Below, one piece after another: positions 8,978-56,160 of a stretch of 64,000 nucleotides of DNA (position 1 is the first letter of the stretch; each line of letters opens with the position of its first letter). Source of the DNA: Utricularia gibba (Eukaryota > Streptophyta > Magnoliopsida > Lamiales > Lentibulariaceae); the NCBI GenBank assembly GCA_002189035.1, contig NEEC01000017.1, positions 186,001 through 250,000 on the forward strand, written 5' to 3'. The position numbers were made by a program, and so were the translations under genes. The notes below the pieces were generated by a model, which saw nothing but the letters and a program-made list of their open reading frames with translations, had not been told where the DNA came from and did no database searches.

Positions 8978-9225
8978 GGCCTCGTTTGTTAGGTGGGTTT
9001 AGCCCTCTAAACCCTTGGGTAAAAAGTGTTGTATGTGTTTGTTGGGGTGGTTTAGTAAAACACAAGGGTTTGTATTAAACCTGCAGCTGCTGATACTCTT
9101 AGGCCTCGTTTGTTAGGTGGGTTTAGCCCTCTAAACCCTTGGGTAAAAAGTGTTGTATGTGTTTGTTGGGGTGGTTTAGTAAAACACAAGGGTTTGTATT
9201 ATCCCAAATTAAACCTGCAGTTGCT
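8978..9225 (+). repeat. tandemly duplicated Harbinger terminus
   Basis: The terminal block beginning GGCCTCGTTTG occurs at 8978 and again at 9102, 124 bases later. Each copy is preceded by GATACTCTTA. The two are nearly identical for about 95 bases; the second contains an extra TCCCAAAT-like piece after GTATTA. Confidence 0.85.
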
Positions 9226-9518
9226 GATTTCACAAAACCCACGTGTGAGGTGGGTTTTGAGAAACCCATCTCACACAAATACAACTTGGTCGATAATACC
9301 CTTCTACTCCATAAGCAAATTCGCAACAGTAAATCTGTATATTTGTTCATCCTCTTCAACACAAATCTGTTGGGTTTTTGCAGGTACATGGTGAGTGAAT
9401 TCGAATTCTGATATTTCAACGAAAACCCATACTTCAATTTAAGCCAAGAGTACTTATTTTTTGTTTCGCATATGATGGAGTCGGTTTTTTTTTTCTGAAA
9501 ATTGCAGTAGGTTGTGCG

Positions 9519-10896
9519 TTGCTTATTGAGGCTATTGCAATGGTTTCAAAGAAGATTATTTTGGCTGCCCTTGCTGCGGCACATTGCGTTGGTCAGCATC
9601 TATGTATTATGCGAGTTATGATTGTTATAATGTTGCATTTCTGTTGTACACCAACCGATAGGAGAATTCGATTCTCATATCGAGAAAAGATACCGCGAAA
9701 AATAGAGCATTTGACTACCTTGTTATCTGATTCAAGGAGTGCTTGTCTTGAAAACTTACGATTATGTGCAGATGTCTTCAACAAGTTATGTTATGTTCTT
9801 CGAAGTAATGGTAGACTAACCACTTCAAGGTATGTCGATGTTCCAGAGCAAGTTGCATTGTTTTTGGGTATTTTGGGTCATCACAGGAAAACAAGGCAAT
9901 AGAAATTTGAATTCATGCGAAGCAGCTGGACAGTGTCCAAATATTTCAATGTGGTATTGTCGGCGGTGCTGTCATTGCACCAAAATTTACTTAAGACAAC
10001 TATGCCAATTGATGTTTCTGATCCCAATTCTAGCTTCAGATTTTTCGAGGTATGCAAGAAGATTTTTCTTCGTAGTTGTGGATGTGCAACGTGTATTCTG
10101 CATGCTGTAACTTTTTGCTCTATTTTTCAGAATTGCTTGGGTGCATTGGATGGTTCATATTTTCAGGTGAAAGTCAAGAATCAGGATAAACCAAAGTGGA
10201 GGAATCGTAAATGAATCGTGTCCACTAATGTGCTAGGAGTGTGTGATGATAAGCTCATGTTCATCTATTTGTTGTCCGGTTGGGAGGGATCCGCTGCTGA
10301 TAGCAGGGTGCTGCGAGATGCAGTTTGTCGACAAAGAGTATTCACTGTACGCAAAGGTAGGTGCTTACAATGTGTAGAAGTCCATAGTTATGATTACCTT
10401 TCATGTATTCCATTTTTTTGTAGGGTATTATTACTTGTGTGATAATGGCTACACAAACGCAGAGGGATTTCTAGCACCCTACAGGGGTGTTCGATACCAT
10501 CTGAAAGAGTAGGGTGTCGGGTCCATTGCTCCACAGAATGCGAAGGAATATTTCAACATGCGGCATGCTTCTGCAAGGAATGTTATTGAGAGGGGATGGG
10601 GTCTAATGAAGATGAGGTAGGGCATTTTACGAAATTATAGTTTTTATCCTATTAAAACACAAACTCGTATCATACTCGCATGTGCCCTGCTTCACAATTT
10701 TATTCGGCGAGAAATGCCAACTGATCCATGGGAAGAGGTCATTCCGGAAGAGTACTGCAATCCGGATTCACAGGAATATGAAGATGATGAACATATTTCC
10801 TCCATAGGAAACTCAGAGGAGTGGACATAGTGGCGGGATTCAATGGCTGAGATAATGTTTGTGCAATGGAGAGAGACCACACGAAGAAGGGTATAA
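9519..10896 (+). pseudogene. Harbinger DDE transposase (DDE_Tnp_4), broken
   Basis: The N-terminal part matches the Harbinger helix-turn-helix region (LENLRLCADVFNKLCYVLR near 9750). The catalytic core follows: NCLGALDGSYF (first D), STNVLGVCDDKLMFIYLL, GWEGSAADSRVLRDA, LCDNGYTNAEGFLAPYRG (second D), MRHASARNVIERGWG (E), and ACALLHNFIRREM. All three acidic residues remain. The frame is broken by TGA 10212, TAG 10510, TAG 10618 and TAG 10828; the middle two replace Trp codons expected from the family (LNEW, LRWGIL). Introns with GT-AG ends are likely near 10050-10130 and 10355-10422. The gene cannot make an active enzyme as it stands. Confidence 0.85.
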
Positions 10897-11267
10897 GGTG
10901 TACTAATGAAGCCTGATATTTTATTGGTTTGGCATAAAAACATTTTATTTCATTTTCCAATAGTTGATAAGCATGGCGTTGTGTTGTATTCATATTGTGC
11001 AAACACATCAGTTATTCCAGACAGGATTTGCTTCTTACATTGGGTTATTTCCCACGGTGAATTGCCTTATTTATCCTGGATTGTTGTCATAGCAAATGTG
11101 ATACAGTCACTGGAAACTAGAATTTGCAGTGGAAAGATATGATAGGGTTGAAGGATACTTCATGTTTCCACACACTGTTGACTCATACATCTGGGTGCAA
11201 CTATTGCATGCTCTACACTATCTACATGTACATTGGAAGAATTGCATTCTAGGTACTGTGAATATCT

Positions 11268-11757
11268 GCTCTCGGTGCCTGGATGAAATGTGTTCCTAGC
11301 ACCGCAATACGCCGCTATTGGTGCTTGGAAGTCCAGTGTACCAGACACCGCAAAAGTTTTGTCTCGGTGTCTACAAGACACCCCTTTTAGGCACTGCAAA
11401 ACTCCGCTCTTAGTGTCTGAGAGACATGCGTCCCAGGCACTGCAGAATGCTGCTCTTGGTGTCTGGAAGACACGTTATTTTAATATTTTCATTAGCGTTC
11501 GATTCTTAGGTATACTTTGGATCGAGCATTAATATAAATTTAAAATAAAAAAATATCCACTCGATTCGAATGATACCTAAGGATCGAACGCTAATAAAAA
11601 TAATAAAATATCGTGTCTTCCACATACCGAGAGCGGCATTCTGCAGTGCCTGGGACGCATGTCTCTCAGACACTGAGAGCAGCGTTTTGCAGTGCCTACA
11701 AGGGGTGTCTTGTAGACACCGAGACAAAACTTTTGCGATGCATAGTACACCGAGACC
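11268..11757. repeat. 46-bp unit array in a large inverted repeat
   Basis: Five tandem units start at 11268, 11314, 11360, 11406 and 11452, exactly 46 bases apart. Each has the form GCTCTxGGTGTCTG...AGACAT...AGGCACTGCAGAAT. After a short AT-rich centre near 11545 the last three units return inverted (GAGAGC positions near 11634, 11680, 11726, again 46 apart), so 11360-11757 can fold into one long hairpin. Several units contain a mini-palindrome such as GGTGTCTACAAGACACC. A related pair recurs at 11968-12060, and the same array occurs in Harbinger copy 2 (48935-49590). Confidence 0.85.
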
Positions 11758-12261
11758 AAAATTTAAGATTATGAATTACAGAATGTTTCCTTTATGGATT
11801 TAAATTAGTTCGAGATTACATAAGATTTTTTTAATCTTATGCATATGAATTTATTTAAAATCACCTACTTTTTTTACATTAATTAAGTTTGATTTTAATT
11901 TTATTAACTATTTTAATACCTAATTAATTGATATATATCATATTTATTTAAATTCAAGTAAAAGGCTGCTCTCAGTGTCTGGGAGACATGCGTTCCAGGC
12001 AATGCAGAATGCTGGTCTCGGTGCCTGGAAGACACACTGTAGACACCACGACCTTTGAAATAGGTGCCTTGAGCAATCACGAGCTAGAATGAATATTAGG
12101 CCTCGCGTATTTGGGCCTCATAACAAACCCTCCAGCCCAGTCCTCACCCTCCTTCACCACGCACCTAATCGCCGCACACTACAAAGCACGGCACACCGTC
12201 CCCACCTTAACCGCATGGTCCCTCCCCCATTTGCTTTCCTCTGATCTGTCTATCTCAAGAA

Positions 12262-12400
12262 ATGCTTACTTCCAAGAAACTCCAACTTCGGTTCGCCATC
12301 CCAGAGATGTACAATCTATGGGACAAGGCAAGCGATGAGACAATTGACGGTGTGGTTCCACCCAGGGTGGGAGTAACCGGGTTTTCGGTGTCCACCAAAC
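12262..12400 (+). pseudogene. truncated start of the gag-like ORF
   Basis: ATGCTTACTTCCAAGAAACT and the next 130 bases are nearly identical to the start of the chimeric ORF in copy 2 (51435). Similarity stops after GTTTTCGGTGTCCAC. The sequence then goes straight into a hairpin (CACGGGTGTGGTTTATGCAT...) that in copy 2 lies 2 kb further on, so the rest of the ORF and the phosphatase domain are absent here. Confidence 0.8.
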
Positions 12401-12828
12401 AAGGGAACACGGGTGTGGTTTATGCATAAACCATGCCCGTATGCCCTTGTAAGGTATACACGATCCAAATAAATATCCACTCGACTCGAATCACACCTAA
12501 AGATCGAACGCGACACACATGCACTCAGTTGGCGCATCGATGCCAGGCACCGCAATTGCGGTGCCTGAAAAGATAGGATGCATGATAGACACTACAACCT
12601 TTCTTTGCAGTGTCTAGAAAGGGACGAGTTCTGATGTTCTGCTTTCTATAGGTTACAGGGGCTTGATAAATATATTTGGTTACACAAACTGAAATCAGAT
12701 ATCAGCTACCCATGGCAAACATGTAAAGCGTAATATTGTCACGCAAAGCAAAATGATTGTCATGATACATGGACATCATAAGTGGATATGATCAAAACAA
12801 CAAAGGAAAAACAGAGGTGTAACGAACA

Positions 12829-13955
12829 TCATAGACCTCTCACAATCCCATTCACCATAACCTCACGTTCTGCACTATTGCTGTCCAGAAAATGATGTAA
12901 CTTTATGGGGTTACTCAAGATGACTTCAGTTACTCCTAGACGCTGCATTGTAGTTAATTGTAATGGCTTCCCTTTGATGATGTCTGCAGAAGCATTTCGA
13001 CGTTCTCGTAGGTCATTGTTTTCAACAGTAAGTATTTCTCCCAGTTGTGCGATGGCAACATTTGTTCGCTTACTCATTTCTTTCAACTTCTCCACCAAGC
13101 TATCAAGTTCTAGACCTTACCTCCTCTTCTTCTTCCTAGGTTCATCACCACTGGTTGGTGTAGTGTGATTACTTGTGCGGCCTCTAGGAGTCCCTCCTGA
13201 TGAGGGATACTCTTCATATGTAGAGGATGCATCATGTGATCTTTGGTCACCATTTTTTTCCGAGTCAACCTCCACTTCAGGATACTCAAGAAGATGCAAT
13301 GGTTGTTCCAAACCGGCCATAGAGTCATCAGCATGTTGTGTTGCATCAGCAGCATCAAGGACACATTCTGCAAATTCTCCGGTGGCTCTATCTTTGCCAA
13401 AGATGATGCACCAATCTGGATAGTAAGGCCAACGCTTAAACCACAACAAATTGTACACCTTCTCATTGTGCTGTACATGTAATCCATAAGTGTACATTAA
13501 TAATCTCATAGGAACTACCTACTACATATATATTAGAACAACAATACCTGTTTGAACTCCACCCACAAATCCTCACTAGCATCTACCATGTTTGTTGAGT
13601 TATCATACCCGGTATCTGACTTATTGAGAAAGTCAGATAGGGCATTGTAATCTTTTTTCCAGTTATGAATCTTTGATTGCATGTGGGGAGTACCTCTGAT
13701 ATCTGAGCCGGGACACAATTTGAGGAACGCCTCCTCTAGTGCTTGAAGGTAATTACCTTTGAATCCATTCTATGCTTTCCATCCACCTTGAATGATATCC
13801 TTTAGAGTGTGGATTAGAAAGCGCTCTTTATCAGGTTTCCACTGTCTTTTGGTCTTAATGTTATCACCACTTCTCCCACGTTTTGTTGTAAGCACGCTTG
13901 CTCCAACCATTTTTGCAACCAACACATAAGTGCGCAACCCATGACAAAACCACAA
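12829..13955 (-). pseudogene. Harbinger MYB/SANT-like accessory gene, copy 1
   Basis: Encodes the plant Harbinger partner protein with a Myb/SANT-like DNA-binding domain: KRQWKPDKERFLIHTLKD, NYLQALEEAFLKLCPGSDIR, HNWKKDYNALSDFL, then PDWCIIFGKDRATGEFAEC, a Ser-rich acidic linker and the basic DEPRKKKRR. The C-terminal exon (13098-12829) has the VEKLKEMSKRTNVAIAQLG helix. An intron lies between EFKQ (about 13550) and the second exon (about 13510). A TAG follows GGWKA near 13770, where copy 2 has GAG, and a TAA follows KKKRR, where copy 2 has CAA. So it is non-functional. In this superfamily such proteins act with the transposase in end binding and nuclear import. Confidence 0.8.
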
Positions 13956-14528
13956 TGCACGTGTAGCTCAATATGGCACAAGAAGTATAACAACATTATA
14001 TGGGTTTCAGGGGCACAATTCACAGCCATATTACTCAAAAAACATCACGCACACTAACACCTAGTCGCTCAATCCACGTGGTTAAGGTCATTCAACCGGC
14101 AAATGAAATAAATGCCTCAAATTCGAGAAAAAAATACCTAGTGCATCACCCAATACCCAATTTTTTGGTAAATCAAACTTGCTCCCAGAGTTGCATGAGC
14201 CGAAGATCCATGCACATCGCAACTCGAGGGTTTCGAATTCCTCAATTTGAATCTCACGTTTCTACATGTGGGGTCAAAATAGGATAATAAGATATTATAT
14301 TATACATAAAGGGTATATTAGAGAATTCATATTTTCGAGTATTGAGAACTTATGCATAAACCCTTCTAACAAACATATAAAATTGATAATCCCATATTAT
14401 TGAACCCTATCTACCAAACACATACTTCATTCTAAACCATTATTTATGAGATACAATAAACTAAAATTATCTAAACCCTTTTAATTTAAACCCACCTAAC
14501 AAACGAGGCCTTACATATTCAACAAATA

Positions 14529-46724: not shown

Positions 46725-48163
46725 AGTTTTGAGTATGATGAAAACATAAGTTATTCCAAGAGGTGAAATGACTCTGATGATATGGTTAATTTCATAATCT
46801 CACTAAACGAGGGTCGGGTGTTATAACGGTCACCGAGTAGTATTATTTTAAAATAACATTATTAGAACGAGTGGGTCAATCATATGAGTTTACACACACA
46901 AATTTGGATGAGTTTTGAGTAAGGTGGATCCTAGATCTGAAGCCATTTTTTTTATAAGTTTAAAATTAATTTTTCATTTTGTTTTCGATCTTTTTGAGTC
47001 TTTATTTGAAAAGAAAAATTTCAGTAACAATTCTTCTTAAATATAATATTATTTTATTACTTCAATGGTTTTTGTACACTTATATAATTACCATCAGGTT
47101 TTTAGCGTTGTTACTTCAATTCTTTTTTGATTTCGTTTTTGATTATTTCTTATTTTTCTGTTATTTTTGAGACATTCTATTTAGCATACTTGCACAAGTA
47201 GTAGTTGCTTTTAATTAGTGTTGCATGTGCATGCACAAGGCTTCAATCGAGCTTTATCCGCTTGACCTGGAAATTGATTGTACTTGTTGGAGAATTAGGT
47301 TGGAAAATCATCAAGCGCAAGCGCATCATAGGGAAAACATGTCTAGGAGGCATTTTAGGTATGAGGAGAACTATTTGGTAACATTTGAACCAGATACAGG
47401 AACAAATGCCAAGACATCAATCGAACAAGGCAACTGGATCAGCCTTACTGACAAATGAAAGAATAAACATAGGCAGGTCTTCTGCCAATCATGAAAGTGC
47501 AGGGGCATATCGAAGACGTAGTGATGGATCTGATCAAGAGCCTGGACAGAACGAACAACAGCAAGGTTGAGATGAAATCAAGGTGTGGGACTTTTCCAAG
47601 GACCCACAGGTGCATTATCAGACCCAAGATAAATTATCTAGGCGCTAGAACATGGTCTAGAAAGGCACAGGCGTGCAAGAGTGAATGAAAATAGTTTGCA
47701 ATTAGTGCTTACACAAGGGTGGCATGAGAACAAGGATTTTGAACTTCAACAACATGAAGAGCAGAAGAGCAACTCATGAACACCAAGGTGAAGGGTGAAT
47801 CCTCCTCCAAGATGGGAAGGAGAAGACAGTTGAGTATGGAGAAAACATGGATTATCACAAAAGGTGAAATAACTTTAGTGGCGGATTGATTCTATAATCC
47901 TATAAACAAGGGATGATGTTATAACGATTATTGGGTAGCATTATTTTAAAATAACACTCCCAAAACTTGCATAAGTAGGTCAGTTCTCAAGGTTTACACG
48001 TATAAGTTTGGACGAGTTTTGAGAAAGGTGGATTCTAGATATGAAGTCACTTTTCTTTATAGTTTTAAATCAATCTTTCACTTTGTGTTCGGTTTTTTTG
48101 AATTTTTGTTTGAAAAAAAAATTTCAATAACAATTCACTATAAATACGATTTTATTTTATTAC
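46725..48163 (+). mobile_element. LTR-like direct repeats around a non-coding core
   Basis: 46725-47062 and 47830-48163 are direct repeats. Shared blocks: GAGGTGAAAT / AAGGTGAAAT, TGTTATAACG (46829 and 47911), TTATTTTAAAATAAC, GTTTTGAG-AAGGTGGAT-CTAGAT, ATTTCA(G/A)TAACAATTC and a TTATTTTATTACTTC end. About 770 bases lie between. The core has short open frames (for example near 47225-47458) but nothing I can assign to gag or pol. This fits a small non-autonomous LTR element (TRIM/LARD class). Ends are approximate. Confidence 0.6.
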
Positions 48164-48740
48164 TTCGAGAAGTAGACACCATGGCATAGAAGTCCTCTGA
48201 TCCACTTGGAGCATATGAATCCATCTCTGTTCTAGTGCTTGAGCCATCAAACTCAATCTCAAATAAATCATATAAATGATTCAAAGTACTAATAGCTAAA
48301 TCATACATAAGCAAAGCATTAGGCTCAATATTCGGAAGTGTAAAAGAAATAACATAATCACAATATCTTTTTAAATTTGCTTGCAAACCGGAAACCTTCA
48401 CCTTCGGATTAAGAATGCTAGACACAAGAAATAAAATATGAATATTTTGAAAATATTTTTCAAATTTTGTCAACCTTCTGTAAAAAATTCTGGATTAAGA
48501 CATTTTTGAAAAGCTATAGAGATACTAACTAAAATAGGTAACACTAAATTAGTAGGATAGTATGATCTACTAAGCGAATATGTAAATTTTCAAAGGTAGA
48601 TTACAAATCACATAAACAATCAAGTTTAGTAAAAATCATAGAATCTAACTCAATCATAGGATCAACATGCATCGATATAAAAGATGGAATAATATCAAGT
48701 TTAGTGACATCCTTTTTCATGCCTTTCTAATAAAAATAGG
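48138..48740 (-). pseudogene. hAT-type transposase fragment
   Basis: On the minus strand, KFEKYFQNIHILFLVSSILN followed by PKVKVSGLQANLKRYCDY resembles the region before the dimerisation domain of plant hAT (RICESLEEPER-like) transposases, which typically read KYW...LAVA.VLDPR.K. Upstream sequence to about 48740 continues weakly with stops. No intact gene. Confidence 0.5.
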
Positions 48741-48927
48741 ACTTTAATTGATAGTAGGTAGTATTCTGCATGCTGTAACTTTCTGCTCTAAACCTTAAGG
48801 CCTCGTTTGTTAGGCGGGTTTAGCCCTCTAAACCCTTAGGTAAAAAGTATTGTATGTGTTTGTTGGGGTGGTTTAGTAAAACACTAGGGTTTGTATTATC
48901 CTGAATTAAATCTGCAACCACTGGTAA

Positions 48928-49600
48928 AATTTTGGTCTCAGTGTCTACAAGACACCCCTTCTAGGCATTGCAAAAGGTTGCTCTCAGTGTCTAGGAGACA
49001 TGCGTCCCAGGCACTACAGAATGCCGCTCTCGGTGTCTGGAAGACACGTTATTTTAATATTTTTATCAGTATTCGATCCTTAGGTATGATTCAGATCGAA
49101 TGTATATTTTTAATTTAAAATTTTTATTGGCATTCGATCCTAGGTATACTTTGGATCGAGTTGATATTCATCTATTTTAAATTTTCATTAGCATTCGACC
49201 CTTAGGAGCAATTTAGATTGTGTATATATGACAACCCACAAGTGCGTGGTTTATGCACAACCCACGTCCGTGTGTCCTTGTCATGTATACACAATCCAAA
49301 TTGCTCTTAAGAGTTGAGCGTGAATATAAATTTAAAATAAATAAATATCCACTCGATTCGAAAATATACCTAAAAAACGAATGCTAATTAAAATATTAAA
49401 ATTAAAAATATACGCTCAATCCGAATCATACCTAAGGATCGAATGTTGATAAAAATATTAAAATAACGTGTCTTCCAGACACCGAGAGCAGCATTCTGTA
49501 GTGCTTGGGATGCATGTCTCCCAGACACTGAGAGCAGCCTTTTGCAGTGCCTAGAAGGGGTGTCTTGTAGACATCGAGACCAAAATTTAAGATTATAAAT
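48928..49600. repeat. 46-bp unit array with inverted arm, copy 2
   Basis: Units repeat with TCTC positions at 48936, 48982 and 49028, again 46 apart, matching copy 1. The inverted counterpart lies at about 49465-49590. Between the arms is a second palindrome (49236-49290, GTGCGTGGTTTATGCACAAC and its complement) and AT-rich spacers containing ATTCGATCCTTAGGTAT motifs in both orientations. Confidence 0.8.
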
Positions 49601-49664
49601 TATAGAATGTTTACTATATGGGTTTAAATTAGTTCGAGATTACATAAGATTTTTTTAATCTTAT

Positions 49665-51009
49665 TGATGCGTGTCGTTTCCACAATAAATTTTAATACTT
49701 TTAAAACTCGTAAAACACAAGCGTAGTACGGGTGTTGAACATAGGGAGTTGTTTTTGAGTGAAAGGTGAGGCACCCCGAATACAACTGTCACGATTTGTA
49801 AACGGTTTTGATGGTAAAAGGTGCGAGAAACGTTGATGATGAAACTTGAGTAAGGAAATGAGAGGGTTTTTGAGCAAACAACTAAAATGAACGTAAGCGA
49901 TGAACCTTAAATAAAGTAAATGTTCCTGGGTTTGGAATCCTATCTAGCTATGTTCGTTGCGTCTTCACTCTTCTCTGGTCCTCTTGAGTACTCGGTTATA
50001 GGAGCAAGGAATTGACTACCCTCCCTTAAACTCTCTTGCAAGAAGGCACGGGAATAGCCCGATGTTGCTCCTCCTTGGACGAACATGAGAATAAGAGGTC
50101 TTGCCAGCGTACCCTTACGGCTGAATTGCACGCGTGTGCCCGAGTGTTGCCAATGACCCAATGAGTCCAGATACGAGGTCACTACCTGTCTATTGATCCT
50201 GAGGTACGACCACATACAAAATGTTGTCTTCCTCCTGCCAAAAGGGCTTGAGTTGGTGCTTTCCACCTTGCTCCTCTCCAAAATCCGCGGGTAGTGATCA
50301 ACTAACCATGAACCTTAAATAAAGGGACTGTTGCAGAAAGACTGCAACATAGTCGCGCGAAGACATACGAAACCCGTTCGGATTCAGAGAAAATGTGAAG
50401 ATAAGCTAACGATACATAGATCTGGGGGTGTTCCAACCCAGAAACGTAAGTTTCTAGCCGCGAACGGCCATCAAACTAAAGAAAACGAAACAAAGTTCTA
50501 GAGAGAAGCTAGAGGAAAATTCCTCTAGAGAGAGAAACAAAAGGGAAAACTAAACTAACTACTCCCTCTTTCGTCTGAACAGAACTCCCACTTCAATGAG
50601 GGTCTGAGATTTCGTGTCCTTGTGATTCTGCTGAACTTGGGATGACTTGCAAGCAACGTCTGACACTGGTACGCTAATGATGTCGCCTGTCAGAGACTCC
50701 CGTGTTCCGCACGTCAAGGCTCATGATTAAGCGTCTGCAGTCTTCCGAAAATCAAGGAATGTCAGCTCGGGAAGATCTAATTTGTCGCCATCTGATACCC
50801 TCTTTCTCTCACTTCCTACCACGTGTGCACCTCTAGAAAAACTCAATTAAAATTAATAAAATTATTACATAAAATTCAAGATTTAAGATAATTACCCTAA
50901 ACTAGATAAAAACTTAAATTTCATATTATAGATCCCTAATTAGACACTTCTAATCACAATTAAACATAAAAACAACTTAAGAAATAGTAAGAAAATGACA
51001 CTTAACACA
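49665..51009. mobile_element. 1.35-kb insertion, candidate solo LTR
   Basis: Copy 1 reads TTTTTTAATCTTATGCATATG without interruption (about 11825-11848). In copy 2 the same place is split by 1,345 bases beginning TGATGCGTGTCG and ending CTTAACACA, that is TG...CA ends typical of an LTR. No coding sequence is recognisable. The adjoining ATATAT obscures the target duplication. Confidence 0.55.
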
Positions 51010-51434
51010 TATATATATATGAATTTATTTAAAATCACCTACCTTTTTACCTTAATTAAGATCTATTTTAATTTTATTAACTAAATAATACCTAATTAAT
51101 TGATATATATCATATTTATTTAAATTCACTGCATAAAGCTGCTTTCAGTGTCTGGGAGACATGCATCCTAGGCACTGCAGAATGCCGCTCTCGGTGTTTG
51201 AAAGACAAGTTGTAGACACTGCAACCTTTGTTCGCGGTGCCTGGAGCAATCACTGGCAGGAATGAATATCGGGCCTCGCGTATCTGGGCCTCATAACAAA
51301 CCCTCCGGCCCAATCCTCACCTTCCTTCACCATGCACCTAATCGCCGCACACTACAAAGCACGGCACACCGTCCCCACCATAACTGCATGGTCCCTCCCT
51401 CATTTGCTTCCCTCTGATCTGTCTATCTCAAGAA

Positions 51435-53245
51435 ATGCTTACTTCCAAGAAACTCCAAGTTCGGTTTACAATCCCAGAGACGTACAATCAATGGGACAAG
51501 GCAAGCGATGAGACAATTGACGGTGTGGTTCCACCCAGGGTGGGAGTAACCGGATTTTCGGTGTCCATCGAACACTTTCGGGGTGGACTTCGCTTGCCAC
51601 CACCACCATTCATATGTGAGTTGCTGGCATGTTTGGAGGTCCCATTGTCCCACCTGACACCCCGCTCAATCGCTCATGTGCTGACCTTTTTGAGTGTGTG
51701 CATGGAGGAACAAATTACTTTGGCCCTACCAGTTTTTTTTGCCATAAGTGTGTGTATTCAAAACCGGAAAACTAATCATTTCTCGTTGAAGTGTAAGCTA
51801 GGTATTGCACTTGTGAATTCTATTCGAAGTGGATATGATGCATGGTGGACAAGCTTCATTTGGGTGTGTCCACCGGAAGACCTCCGAATTTCAACTACTC
51901 TCGGCTCCTTCAAGAAAATTGAAAAGGCAAAGGGTAATGTGTAATGTAGTATGGTTGCATGGCTAGTGTACTATGATTTATGATATTCGATTATCCATAT
52001 TGTAGGATTTGATAAACTATCGAAGGAAGGGGTGGATGCCTTGTTGACTATGTTTAGTGAAAAGAGTAAGGCTTTGAGTGACATAGTACCCCCCGTGGTG
52101 GACGCTGCCGGTACTCGCCACTTCTGGTGTGGTCAGGGAAGAGTGATACGTGAGCGACCAAAGCCTGACGACATGATCATTGAGGAAGAGATGTCACTAG
52201 CATTTGCATCTGATCGACAGCGGGATGTAGGGAGCAATGTGGAGGAAGACAACCCGCAACCAACTACTAGTGTGGATGTGGACTGAATTATGGAAGAGAA
52301 TGCCCATCTTTGTGCAAGGCTAGATTGGTATGAAAGTAGGTGGGCATACACTAGCCCCAGTTCATTGCCCCAGCAACAAGTGCGCAAGCTCCTTGTGTTA
52401 GACGTTAATGGAGTGCTAGCAGACATTGTCTTCAAAGCCAAGTACCAAAGGTTGCATCGGAAACCAGAATGTGTGATATATGGGCGAAATAGTAAGACAA
52501 CTTAACATTGTCTCATGGCTGTGTCATGTTCAACCAATCCATTAGTTTTTCTCGCTTGGCAGTCTTCCTCAGGCCCTTCGCTCGTGAGTTCATCTAATGG
52601 TGTCTTGTAAACTTTGATGTAGACATATGGTCTTCAAGGGACGCGTAAGTCCCACTCCACGAAATCTACAGTGCATGTGCTGCTATCTAATGCTCTAACA
52701 TGTGTCTATGTTCTATAGTGCACAACTACATGAGATCATCAAGTGGGTGTTTGGGCCAAATGCAGACACCTCACTGGCTTTCATATGGGATGTATCCAAG
52801 ACCACTGAAACGCATGTATGTGTGCATGATGATAGGTCAAAAGCTGCTGTGTTGAAGGAGTTGTTGCGGGTTTGGGGGGAAGATGAAGGATTCTTGGGTC
52901 GGTATGATGAAACCGACACCTTACTTATTGGCGACTCCCCATTCAAGTCCATCAGAAACCCAGTTAAGTCAATCTGTGATCATATGGACTGGTACGCATG
53001 TTTCCTACTAACACTTAGGCCATGGTCTTATTGTGCCACACCATGGCAATGCTATCTTCCCGACGCCATACCAGTACATGGATGTAAGAGATGTTGCGTT
53101 AGTTGAGTGTGGAGAAATACGCATATTCCTTCAAGGTCTACTAGAAGCAAATGATGTACCAAGTTTCATGAAGCATGTACGAATTGGATAGCCTCCGTTA
53201 GATGCTAATAACCCACTATGGGATTATTACAAAGTTCTTGCTTGA
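51435..53245 (+). pseudogene. chimeric gag-like / FCP1-NIF HAD phosphatase gene
   Basis: Exon 1 (51435-51933) encodes MLTSKKLQVRFTIPETYNQW, GGLRLPPPPFICELLACLEV and SVCIQNRKTNHFS, resembling the plant gypsy-type Transposase_28 region. It splices in phase to exon 2 (52006-52491), which ends in a HAD motif I, RKLLVLDVNGVLADIV. Exon 3 (52563-52644): FLRPFAREFI, then WCLVNFDVDIWSSRD (motif II). Exon 4 (52719-52962): AFIWDVSKTTETHVCVHDD, KAAVLKELLRVWGED, ETDTLLIGDSPFKSIRNP (motifs III-IV). A final block to 53245 gives GNAIFPTPYQYM, IRIFLQGLLEANDV and PLWDYYKVLA, the family's C-terminus, but I could not join it in frame. Premature stops: TGA 52284, TAA 52595, TAG 53189. Host plant relatives dephosphorylate protein serines; here the key Asp residues survive. 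Probably a captured host gene. Confidence 0.75.
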
Positions 53246-53629
53246 ACATTCATAGCATGTAACAATGGTTTGAATTTCGAAACATTATGATGTTACTCAC
53301 TCTACTTTAATCATGGATTTGTCAATATACATTTGATAAATTAAAGTAAGTAAATATATGTTCTCAAATAATATATTTGAGAACATATTATATGCATACT
53401 TTAAAATAGATGATAATATATATGATGTTACTCACTCTACTTTAAAATAATACCTTGAATTAATATTTTTATTAGCATACGATCCTTAGGTATACTTTGG
53501 ATCGAGTGCATATTCATTTATTTTAAATCTTAATTAGCGTTCGACCCTTAAGAGCAATTTGAATTGTGTATACCTAACAAGGGCACATGGGCGTGGTTTA
53601 TGCGCACGCCTGTATGCATATACAGCAGC

Positions 53630-53705
53630 ACCACAAGGTCACACGGGCGTGGTTTATGCATAAACCACGTCCGTGTGCCCTTGTTAGGTATACACGATCC
53701 AAATT
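53630..53705. repeat. near-perfect hairpin
   Basis: CACACGGGCGTGGTTTATGC is followed directly by its inverted complement (ATAAACCACGTCCGTGTG), flanked by CAAGG and CCTTG. Weaker versions occur at 49236-49290 and 12407-12460. It is a fixed part of this Harbinger family. Confidence 0.8.
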
Positions 53706-53848
53706 ACCCCTAAGGGTCGAGCGTTAATATTTATTTAAAATAAATAAATATCCACTCGACTCGAATCACACCTAAAGATTGAATGATAATAAAAATATTA
53801 AAATAAAAAATATACGCTCAATCCGAATCATACCTATGGATCGAATGC

Positions 53849-54260
53849 CACACACATGCAGTCAGATGGTGCATCGATGCCAGGCATCGGAAGTGCATAT
53901 TTGCGGTGCCTAGAAAGATTGGATGCATGCCTTTGAAAGGGCAATCCAGTGTAGTCAATACTTCACACCTAACAAGCGGGAGGTCGGGCTGAGTGTCACA
54001 CACATGCAGTCAGATGGTGCATCGATGCCAGGCACTGGAAGCGCATATTTGCGGTGCCTGGAAAGATTGGATGCATGCCTCCGAAGGGCAATCCAGTGCA
54101 ATCAATACTTCACACCTAACAAGTGGGAGGTCGGGCTGAGTGGCACGCCACACACATGCACTCAGTTGGCGCATCGATGCCAAGCACCGCAAGCGCATAT
54201 TTGCAGTGCCTGGAAAGATAGGATGCATGATAGGCACTGCAACCTTTATTTGCGGTGCCT
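53849..54260 (+). repeat. about 150-bp tandem repeat, 2.7 units
   Basis: Units beginning CACACACATGCA start at about 53849, 53998 and 54149. Each contains GCATCGATGCCAGGCA, CATATTTGCGGTGCCT and CACACCTAACAAG..GGGAGG. The third is cut short. Copy 1 has a single partial unit (about 12517-12620), so the expansion is specific to copy 2. Confidence 0.82.
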
Positions 54261-54483
54261 AGAAAGGGACGAGTCCTGCTGTTCTGCTTTCTATAGGTTA
54301 CACCTCTTGATAAAGATATTTGGTTACACAAACTGAAATCAGATATCAACTACTCATGGCAAACATGTAAAGCGTAATATTTTCACTCAAAGCAAAATGA
54401 TCGTCATGATACATGGACATCATAAGTGGATATGATCAAAACAATAAAGGAAAAAAGGAGGTGTAACAAACATCATAGACCAA

Positions 54484-55580
54484 TCACAATCTCATCCACC
54501 AAACCTCACGTTCTGCACTATTGCTGTCCAAAAAATGCTGTAACTTTATGGGGTTACTCAAGATGACTTTAGTTACTCCTAGACACTGCATTGTAGTTAA
54601 TTGTAATGACATCCCTTTGATGATGTTTGCAGAAGCATTTCGACATTCCCGTAGGTCATTGTTTTCAGCAGTCAGAATTTCTCCCGATTGTGCGATGGCA
54701 TCATTTGTTCGCTTACTCATTTCTTTCAACTCCTCCACCAAGGTATCAAGTTTTGGACCTTGCCTCCTCTTCTTCTTCCTAGGTTCATTACCACTGATCG
54801 GTGTAGCGTGATTACCTATGCGGCCTCCAGGAGTCCCTCTTGATGAGGGATACTCTTCATATGTAGAGGATGCATCATGTGATCGTTGGTCACCATTTTT
54901 TTCTGAGTTAATTTCCACTTCAGGATACTCAAGAAGATGCACTGGTTGTTCCAAACCAACCACAGAGTCATCAGCCTGCTGTGTTGCATCAGCAGCATCA
55001 GGGACACATTCTGCAAATTCTCCAATGGCTTTATCTTTACCGAAGATGATGCACCAATTTGGATAGTAAGGCCAACACTTAAACCACAACAAATTGTAAA
55101 CCTTTTTATTGTGTTGTACATGTAATCCATAAGTGTACATTAATAATCTCACAGGAACTACCTACTACATATACATTAGAACAACAATACCTGTTTGAAC
55201 TCCACCCACAAATCCTCACTAGCATCTACCATGTTTGTTGAGTTATCATACCTGGTACCTGACTTGTTGAGAAAGGCATATAGGGCATTGTAATCTTGTT
55301 TCTAATTATGAATCTTTCATTACATGTGAGGAGTGCCTCTTATATTTGAGTTGGGACACAATTTGAGGAACGCTTCCTCTAGTGCTTGAAGGTAATTACC
55401 TTTGAATCCGTCCTCTGCTTTCCACCCATCTTGAATGATATCCTTTAGAGCGTGGATTAGAAAGCGCTCTTCATCAGGTTTCCACTGTCTTTTGGTCTTA
55501 ATGTTATCATCACTTCTCCCACGTTTTGTTGTAGGCACGTTTGCTCCAACCATTTCTGCAACCAACATATAAGTGTGCAA
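54484..55580 (-). pseudogene. Harbinger MYB/SANT-like accessory gene, copy 2
   Basis: The same gene as in copy 1. The first exon has KRQWKPDEERFLIHALKD, DGWKAEDGFKGNYLQALEEA and FLKLCPNSNIRGTPHM, then CAA, TCA and TGG codons of copy 1 are TAA, TGA and TAG here (about 55324-55300). The second exon (55152-54484) is a fully open 222-codon frame containing PNWCIIFGKDKAIGEFAEC, a Ser-rich linker, GNEPRKKKRRQGPKLDTLVE and the C-terminal helix. Copies 1 and 2 are broken at different places. Confidence 0.8.
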
Positions 55581-56160
55581 CCCATGACAAAACCATGACG
55601 CACGTGTAGCTCAATATGGCACCGGAAATATAACAACATTATATGTGTTTCAGGGGCACAATTCACAACCATATTACTCAAAAAACATCACGCACACTAA
55701 CACCCAGTCGTTCAATCCATGTGGTTAAGGTCATTCAAGTGGCAAATGAAATAAACGCCACAAATTCGAGAAAAAAATACCTGGTGCATCACCCAATACC
55801 CAATTTTTCGGTAGATCAAACTTGTTCCCAGAGTTACATGAGTCGAAGATCCATGGATATTACATCGCAGATCGAGGGTTTTGAATTCCCCAATCTGTGA
55901 GTCTCATGTTTCTACATGTGAGGTCAAAATAGGATAATATGATATTATATTATACATATATGGTATGTTAGAGAATTCATCTTTTCTAATATTGAGAAAC
56001 TATATATAAACCCTTCTAACAAATATAGAAAATTAATAATCCCACATTATTGAACCCTATCTATTAAATACATACTTCATTCTAAATCATTATTTATGAG
56101 ATACAATAAACTAAAATAATCTAAATCCTTTTAATTTAAACCCATCTAACAAACGAGGCC

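Follow-up and report, generated by a model that had tools for sequence, protein, structure and literature searches.

It is already known that different transposon superfamilies can have an accessory gene in common. In fungi, genes for TET/JBP dioxygenases occur in hAT, Harbinger, EnSpm and further DNA transposons (PMC12730594), and KAONASHI provides a plant case within a single superfamily. In Retand LTR retrotransposons, an accessory gene encoded antisense to gag-pol contains TRP28 (PF04195), a domain of unknown function for which DNA binding is predicted and a regulatory role in Retand is suspected. TRP28 was present in 97% of the Retand clusters of one survey, has no similarity outside transposable elements and is apparently restricted to flowering plants (PMC11963269). 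In the literature covered, which excluded most subscription papers, we found no paper on a fusion of TRP28 with an FCP1-like domain or on TRP28 in Harbinger or hAT elements. Here we describe such a fusion from Utricularia gibba, where it has long persisted as a passenger in cut-and-paste transposons of two unrelated kinds, Harbinger and hAT.

The window, which is the whole stretch of 64,000 nucleotides analyzed, contains a chimeric gene of five exons (51435-53245, forward strand), and three-frame translation confirmed the coordinates and the reading frame that a sequence-only reading had assigned to it (Table 1). Exon 1 passed the Pfam cut-off for Transposase_28 (PF04195), a family also matched in the three other carrier lineages described below, and the part encoded by exons 2-5 passed the cut-off for NIF (PF03031; E 1.3e-7), the domain of FCP1/SCP-type phosphatases. 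Exon 1 had been read as gag-like, an assignment that we reject, as PF04195 is not a gag family but the domain of the Retand accessory gene on the strand opposite gag-pol (PMC11963269). It was the sole Pfam match of the N-terminal part, in which no gag or capsid domain was found. When exon 1 was folded alone, a pLDDT of 34.8 was obtained, too low for the model to be of use, and a sequence search of the PDB returned a single weak match, to UBLCP1 (E 0.13).

Table 1. Positions within the window of the chimeric gene and of the Harbinger elements.
Feature	Positions	Strand	Basis or remark
Harbinger copy 1, same lineage as copy 2	9102-14510	+	TTA target duplication, TIRs
Harbinger copy 2, lineage A1, carrier of the chimeric gene, transposase deleted	48799-56160	+	TIR GGCCTCGTTTGTTAGG at both ends, flanks TAA / TTA; DNA alignment to 8 sister regions
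Exon 1: TRP28 / Transposase_28 domain, not gag	51435-51933	+	PF04195, E 1.3e-8
Intron 1, phase 1, GT...AG	51934-52005	+	
Exon 2: linker with conserved LxWYExRW motif, then motif I LDVNGVLAD; contains TGA 52284-52286	52006-52491	+	
Exon 3: RPFAREF...WSSRD (motif II); contains TAA 52595-52597	52563-52644	+	
Exon 4: motif III (LKEL) and motif IV (GDSP here; DDSP in most copies)	52719-52962	+	
Intron 4 splice acceptor, lost	53039-53041	+	CAC versus CAG in most sister copies
Exon 5: C-terminal part to terminal TGA; contains TAG 53189-53191	53042-53245	+	
Harbinger ORF1 gene (Myb/SANT-like DNA-binding protein), degraded	54484-55559	-	PF12776 match of sister copy; window 87% identical

The window copy of the gene is dead, with three in-frame stops, a lost acceptor of intron 4 and no transposase in its element. 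At the sites of the three stops, related copies mostly encode R (TGA), E or Q (TAA) and Q (TAG), so that the TGA and the TAG fit C-to-T changes, in line with the earlier proposal of three point stops, two of them of this kind. Most intron borders had been described as canonical, which holds for intron 1, whose length is 72 nt in most A1 copies and 76-86 nt in many other copies, but not for the acceptor of intron 4, where the window has CCACAC and most sister copies CCACAG.

The label of FCP1/NIF-type phosphatase given to the second half is borne out as far as the NIF domain is concerned, but goes beyond the evidence with respect to activity. Motif I departs from the form DxDx(T/V) with two aspartates, the second being replaced by Asn in 30 of 32 copies and also in the four host paralogues L067-L070, whereas the first aspartate, motif II, the lysine of motif III and motif IV are retained by the HAD domain in most copies. 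In SCP1 both aspartates of motif I lie within the catalytic site (PMC7281111). As motif I reads DxN and not DxD in transposon copies as well as in host paralogues, classical phosphatase catalysis by the fusion protein seems doubtful. Among the motifs reported as kept, LDVNGVL and WSSRD are confirmed, but the G of GDSPFKS is peculiar to the window copy, the first residue of motif IV being D in 22 of 25 readable copies.

That the gene resides in a Harbinger element, as had been proposed, is corroborated by the terminal inverted repeats (TIRs) of copy 2 and by its TWA-type target site, its flanks deviating by a single base from a perfect TWA duplication. Sister copies encode a DDE_Tnp_4 transposase (PF13359; 4.3e-19) and a Myb/SANT ORF1 (PF12776; 5.7e-11), which, together with TIRs and a 3-bp TWA target duplication, place the window element in PIF/Harbinger. 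Perfect duplications flank copy 1 (TTA/TTA) and the locus L054 (TAA/TAA). Copy 1 retains transposase pieces (9738-10728, +) and ORF1 (13542-13916, -), but of its chimeric gene roughly the first 52 codons remain (12262-12417). Further features were seen in and around the two elements. The left terminal repeat of copy 1 is doubled in tandem, 124 bases apart (8978-9120), and both copies contain large internal inverted repeats (48927-49588 and 11336-11750) with arms of 191-200 nt that are 90-92% complementary. Just outside the left end of copy 2 lies a fragment (48138-48494, -) that is similar to the C-terminal portion of the hAT-C transposase. Most sister elements lack a stretch of about 1.35 kb that is present in copy 2 (49665-51007). 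Since related stretches are located elsewhere in L051 (3772-4877, within intron 4) and in L053 (1274-2621), this is probably a further mobile element that became nested within the Harbinger family.

The exons of the gene were searched in the genome holding the window (100 Mb), which was covered in parts with the best candidates scored, and all counts are therefore lower bounds. The phosphatase exon (exon 4) gave at least 120 matches and exon 1 at least 150 scored ones. For 79 of the 120 phosphatase-exon matches, exon 1 lay upstream in the same orientation, in most cases at a distance of 0.5-1.4 kb, compared with three pairs in the wrong order or on the wrong strand, which excludes linkage by chance. 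Other copies thus join both regions, and the possibility that the two are merely adjacent insertions, against which the sequence-only reading had set its own proposal, did not materialize. The merged list holds at least 175 cassette loci, at least 75 of them with both halves. The chimeric gene is real, its linkage is not accidental, and it represents a family and not a one-off. Intact copies elsewhere, which had been suggested as possibly expressed, were not encountered, as none of the copies examined had every exon open in one frame.

Nor is the fusion tied to this Harbinger alone. The same arrangement of five exons is found in four lineages of carriers, two of Harbinger (A1 and A2) and two of hAT (B and C), and element ends were found in each, with TAA/TTA target duplications for the Harbinger lineages and 8-bp duplications for the hAT lineages. 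In A1, ends are flanked by a TTA or TAA duplication, and the A2 element L062 has the TIR GGGCGCGTTTGG with TAA on either side. The hAT-B element on contig C375 (8.0 kb) has a perfect 18-base TIR, TAGAGGTGGATTCGGTTC, and an 8-bp target duplication with one difference (GGAAAAAC/GGGAAAAC). Similarly, the hAT-C element on contig C451 (4.9 kb) has the TIR TAGAGCTGGGCACG and is flanked by 8-bp duplicates that differ at a single base (GATGTAAC/GGTGTAAC). Short TIRs and 8-bp duplications assign both lineages to hAT; the B transposase contains the C-terminal dimerization domain (PF05699; 6.4e-23), and the C transposase pieces align to B, the middle piece of C alone being without a Pfam match. Two B-type cassettes on different contigs, L060 (C451:3873500-3881500) and C41:31476-33449, share equal identity to the query and equal spacing; no hAT transposase was found in L060.

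Gene order is characteristic of each carrier, the fusion being the third gene of the Harbinger lineages and the second gene of the hAT lineages. In Harbinger, the transposase precedes the cassette on the same strand (43 loci versus 1, 1 and 1 in the other arrangements) and the Myb/SANT ORF1 faces it (convergent at 38 loci versus 0, 2 and 1). The hAT-B transposase is likewise upstream on the same strand (17 loci versus 2, 1 and 0), and the hAT-C layout was seen at 4 loci only, versus 1, 0 and 2 otherwise. At 100 of the 175 cassette loci no transposase was assigned, in part because only the top-scored transposase matches were used.

The reading frame has been constrained over the long term, as indicated by comparisons between the lineages A1, A2, B and C, where divergence at third codon positions is about twice that at second positions in both domains (p3 0.59-0.69 versus p2 0.25-0.34) and pN/pS amounts to 0.32-0.46. 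Within lineages, C-to-T and G-to-A changes predominate, so that pairwise dN/dS values inside lineages should not be trusted at face value. Private changes in six A1 copies are spread evenly over the codon positions (0.043, 0.045 and 0.047), which indicates that these copies are now decaying neutrally. Such neutral-looking recent changes, together with the broken state of every copy examined, would be expected if transposons had caught pieces of host genes and carried them without function, and such Pack-type capture is common in plants (PMC8903248). This passive transduplication is nevertheless unlikely, given that a single capture has been kept in elements with their own transposase in two superfamilies, that motifs are conserved across lineages and that the excess of third-position changes between lineages extends over both domains.

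The history of the fusion was followed in a tree of 25 cassettes, in which deep branches divide the four lineages, A1 Harbinger grouping with hAT-C and A2 Harbinger with hAT-B (98/98). The presence of the same fusion in two unrelated superfamilies requires at least one transfer. Forcing all Harbinger cassettes together, with L019 left outside, costs 29.7 log units (p 0.011), and forcing the hAT cassettes together gives p 0.046, and on these grounds two transfers between superfamilies are favoured, although not proven. The cassette L019 (C451:5264164-5265722) forms a deep lineage on a long branch, and only a Harbinger ORF1 was found beside it. On C451, the hAT-C copy is nested within a copy of Harbinger A1, and the corresponding part of the window element represents the empty site. 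The case illustrates one route by which cassettes from two lineages become neighbours; past transfers may have come about through such nesting.

The phosphatase part was also compared with host genes, as had been suggested, and the transposon-borne halves formed one clade against the four host NIF paralogues L067-L070 (100/99; host paralogue match to PF03031, 1.1e-15), which points to one capture with introns. The deep order differs between this host-rooted tree and the whole-gene tree. Four introns are at equal positions across the lineages. Three of the exon borders of the cassette and the DVNG/DLNG motif are also present in the host genes, which contain two additional introns. The shared borders favour capture of DNA over a retrocopy, in agreement with the earlier view of a DNA-level capture that kept introns. 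From these comparisons it appears very probable that the phosphatase half was derived once from a host family of the DxNG type.

The deep division of the four lineages and the 100 cassette loci without an assigned transposase could also be accommodated if the fusion existed as a multigene family of the host, from which each transposon lineage made its own capture. This is improbable, since the host PF03031 genes examined fall outside the transposon clade, TRP28 was not seen in the stretches around L067-L070, and the cassette matches are dispersed and mostly decayed. The cassette might instead be a non-autonomous mobile element inserting into other transposons, as its differing places and orientations in different elements could suggest, but its place is fixed within each lineage and the DNA alignment of the window with L059 is limited to exonic stretches without common flanks, which makes this very improbable. 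In the copies as inspected, though not by a systematic scan, no terminal repeats with target duplications were noticed directly bordering the cassette. Finally, chance juxtaposition of TRP28 and phosphatase fragments in copy 2, for which one might invoke that both parts are known as transposon-borne or host fragments and that the window copy is pseudogenized, deserves practically no credence and is refuted by the ordered, oriented linkage counted above and by the identical four introns in the four carrier lineages.

We therefore consider it likely that the window gene is a decayed version of an accessory gene stably maintained by plant cut-and-paste transposons, with a function that we put forward as conjecture, and have high confidence in the anatomy and the history of the TRP28-HAD fusion in Harbinger and hAT. 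The functional steps that follow are tentative. The fusion protein would work in the nucleus, where TRP28 perhaps contacts DNA and the HAD domain might bind, or less likely hydrolyze, a target phosphorylated on Ser/Thr such as the Pol II CTD or a silencing factor, and elements encoding the fusion might thereby be better transcribed. A trans-acting regulator of this type, binding phospho-CTD or a silencing factor and passed between Harbinger and hAT at least two times, is a speculative possibility; if true, it would link the TRP28 of Retand to a role in transcription or anti-silencing.

The fusion resembles the Retand case in that a mobile element carries PF04195 in an accessory gene, but in Retand TRP28 stands antisense to gag-pol and here it forms the N-terminal exon of an FCP1-like fusion in cut-and-paste transposons (PMC11963269). 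Like plant DxNG paralogues among the FCP1/SCP CTD phosphatases (NIF, PF03031), the transposon copies possess the HAD domain, motifs II, III and IV and three intron positions, with motif I as DxN in both; in contrast to these paralogues, they are fused to TRP28 and lack two host introns. KAONASHI of plant MULEs resembles the fusion as a host-derived domain in one of three genes of a DNA transposon, but differs in superfamily (MULE) and in domain (Ulp1 protease; PMC13317346). In the fungal TET/JBP genes, as here, one host-type enzyme gene is accessory to several unrelated superfamilies and has been transferred between them (PMC12730594), whereas our case concerns a plant genome, a TRP28-phosphatase-like fusion instead of a dioxygenase and a catalytic motif already altered in the host paralogues examined. 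The fusion of TRP28 to a host-derived HAD domain in two superfamilies of DNA transposons offers a concrete, testable idea on the role of TRP28. It also provides a plant parallel to the spread of a single accessory gene over unrelated transposons in fungi.
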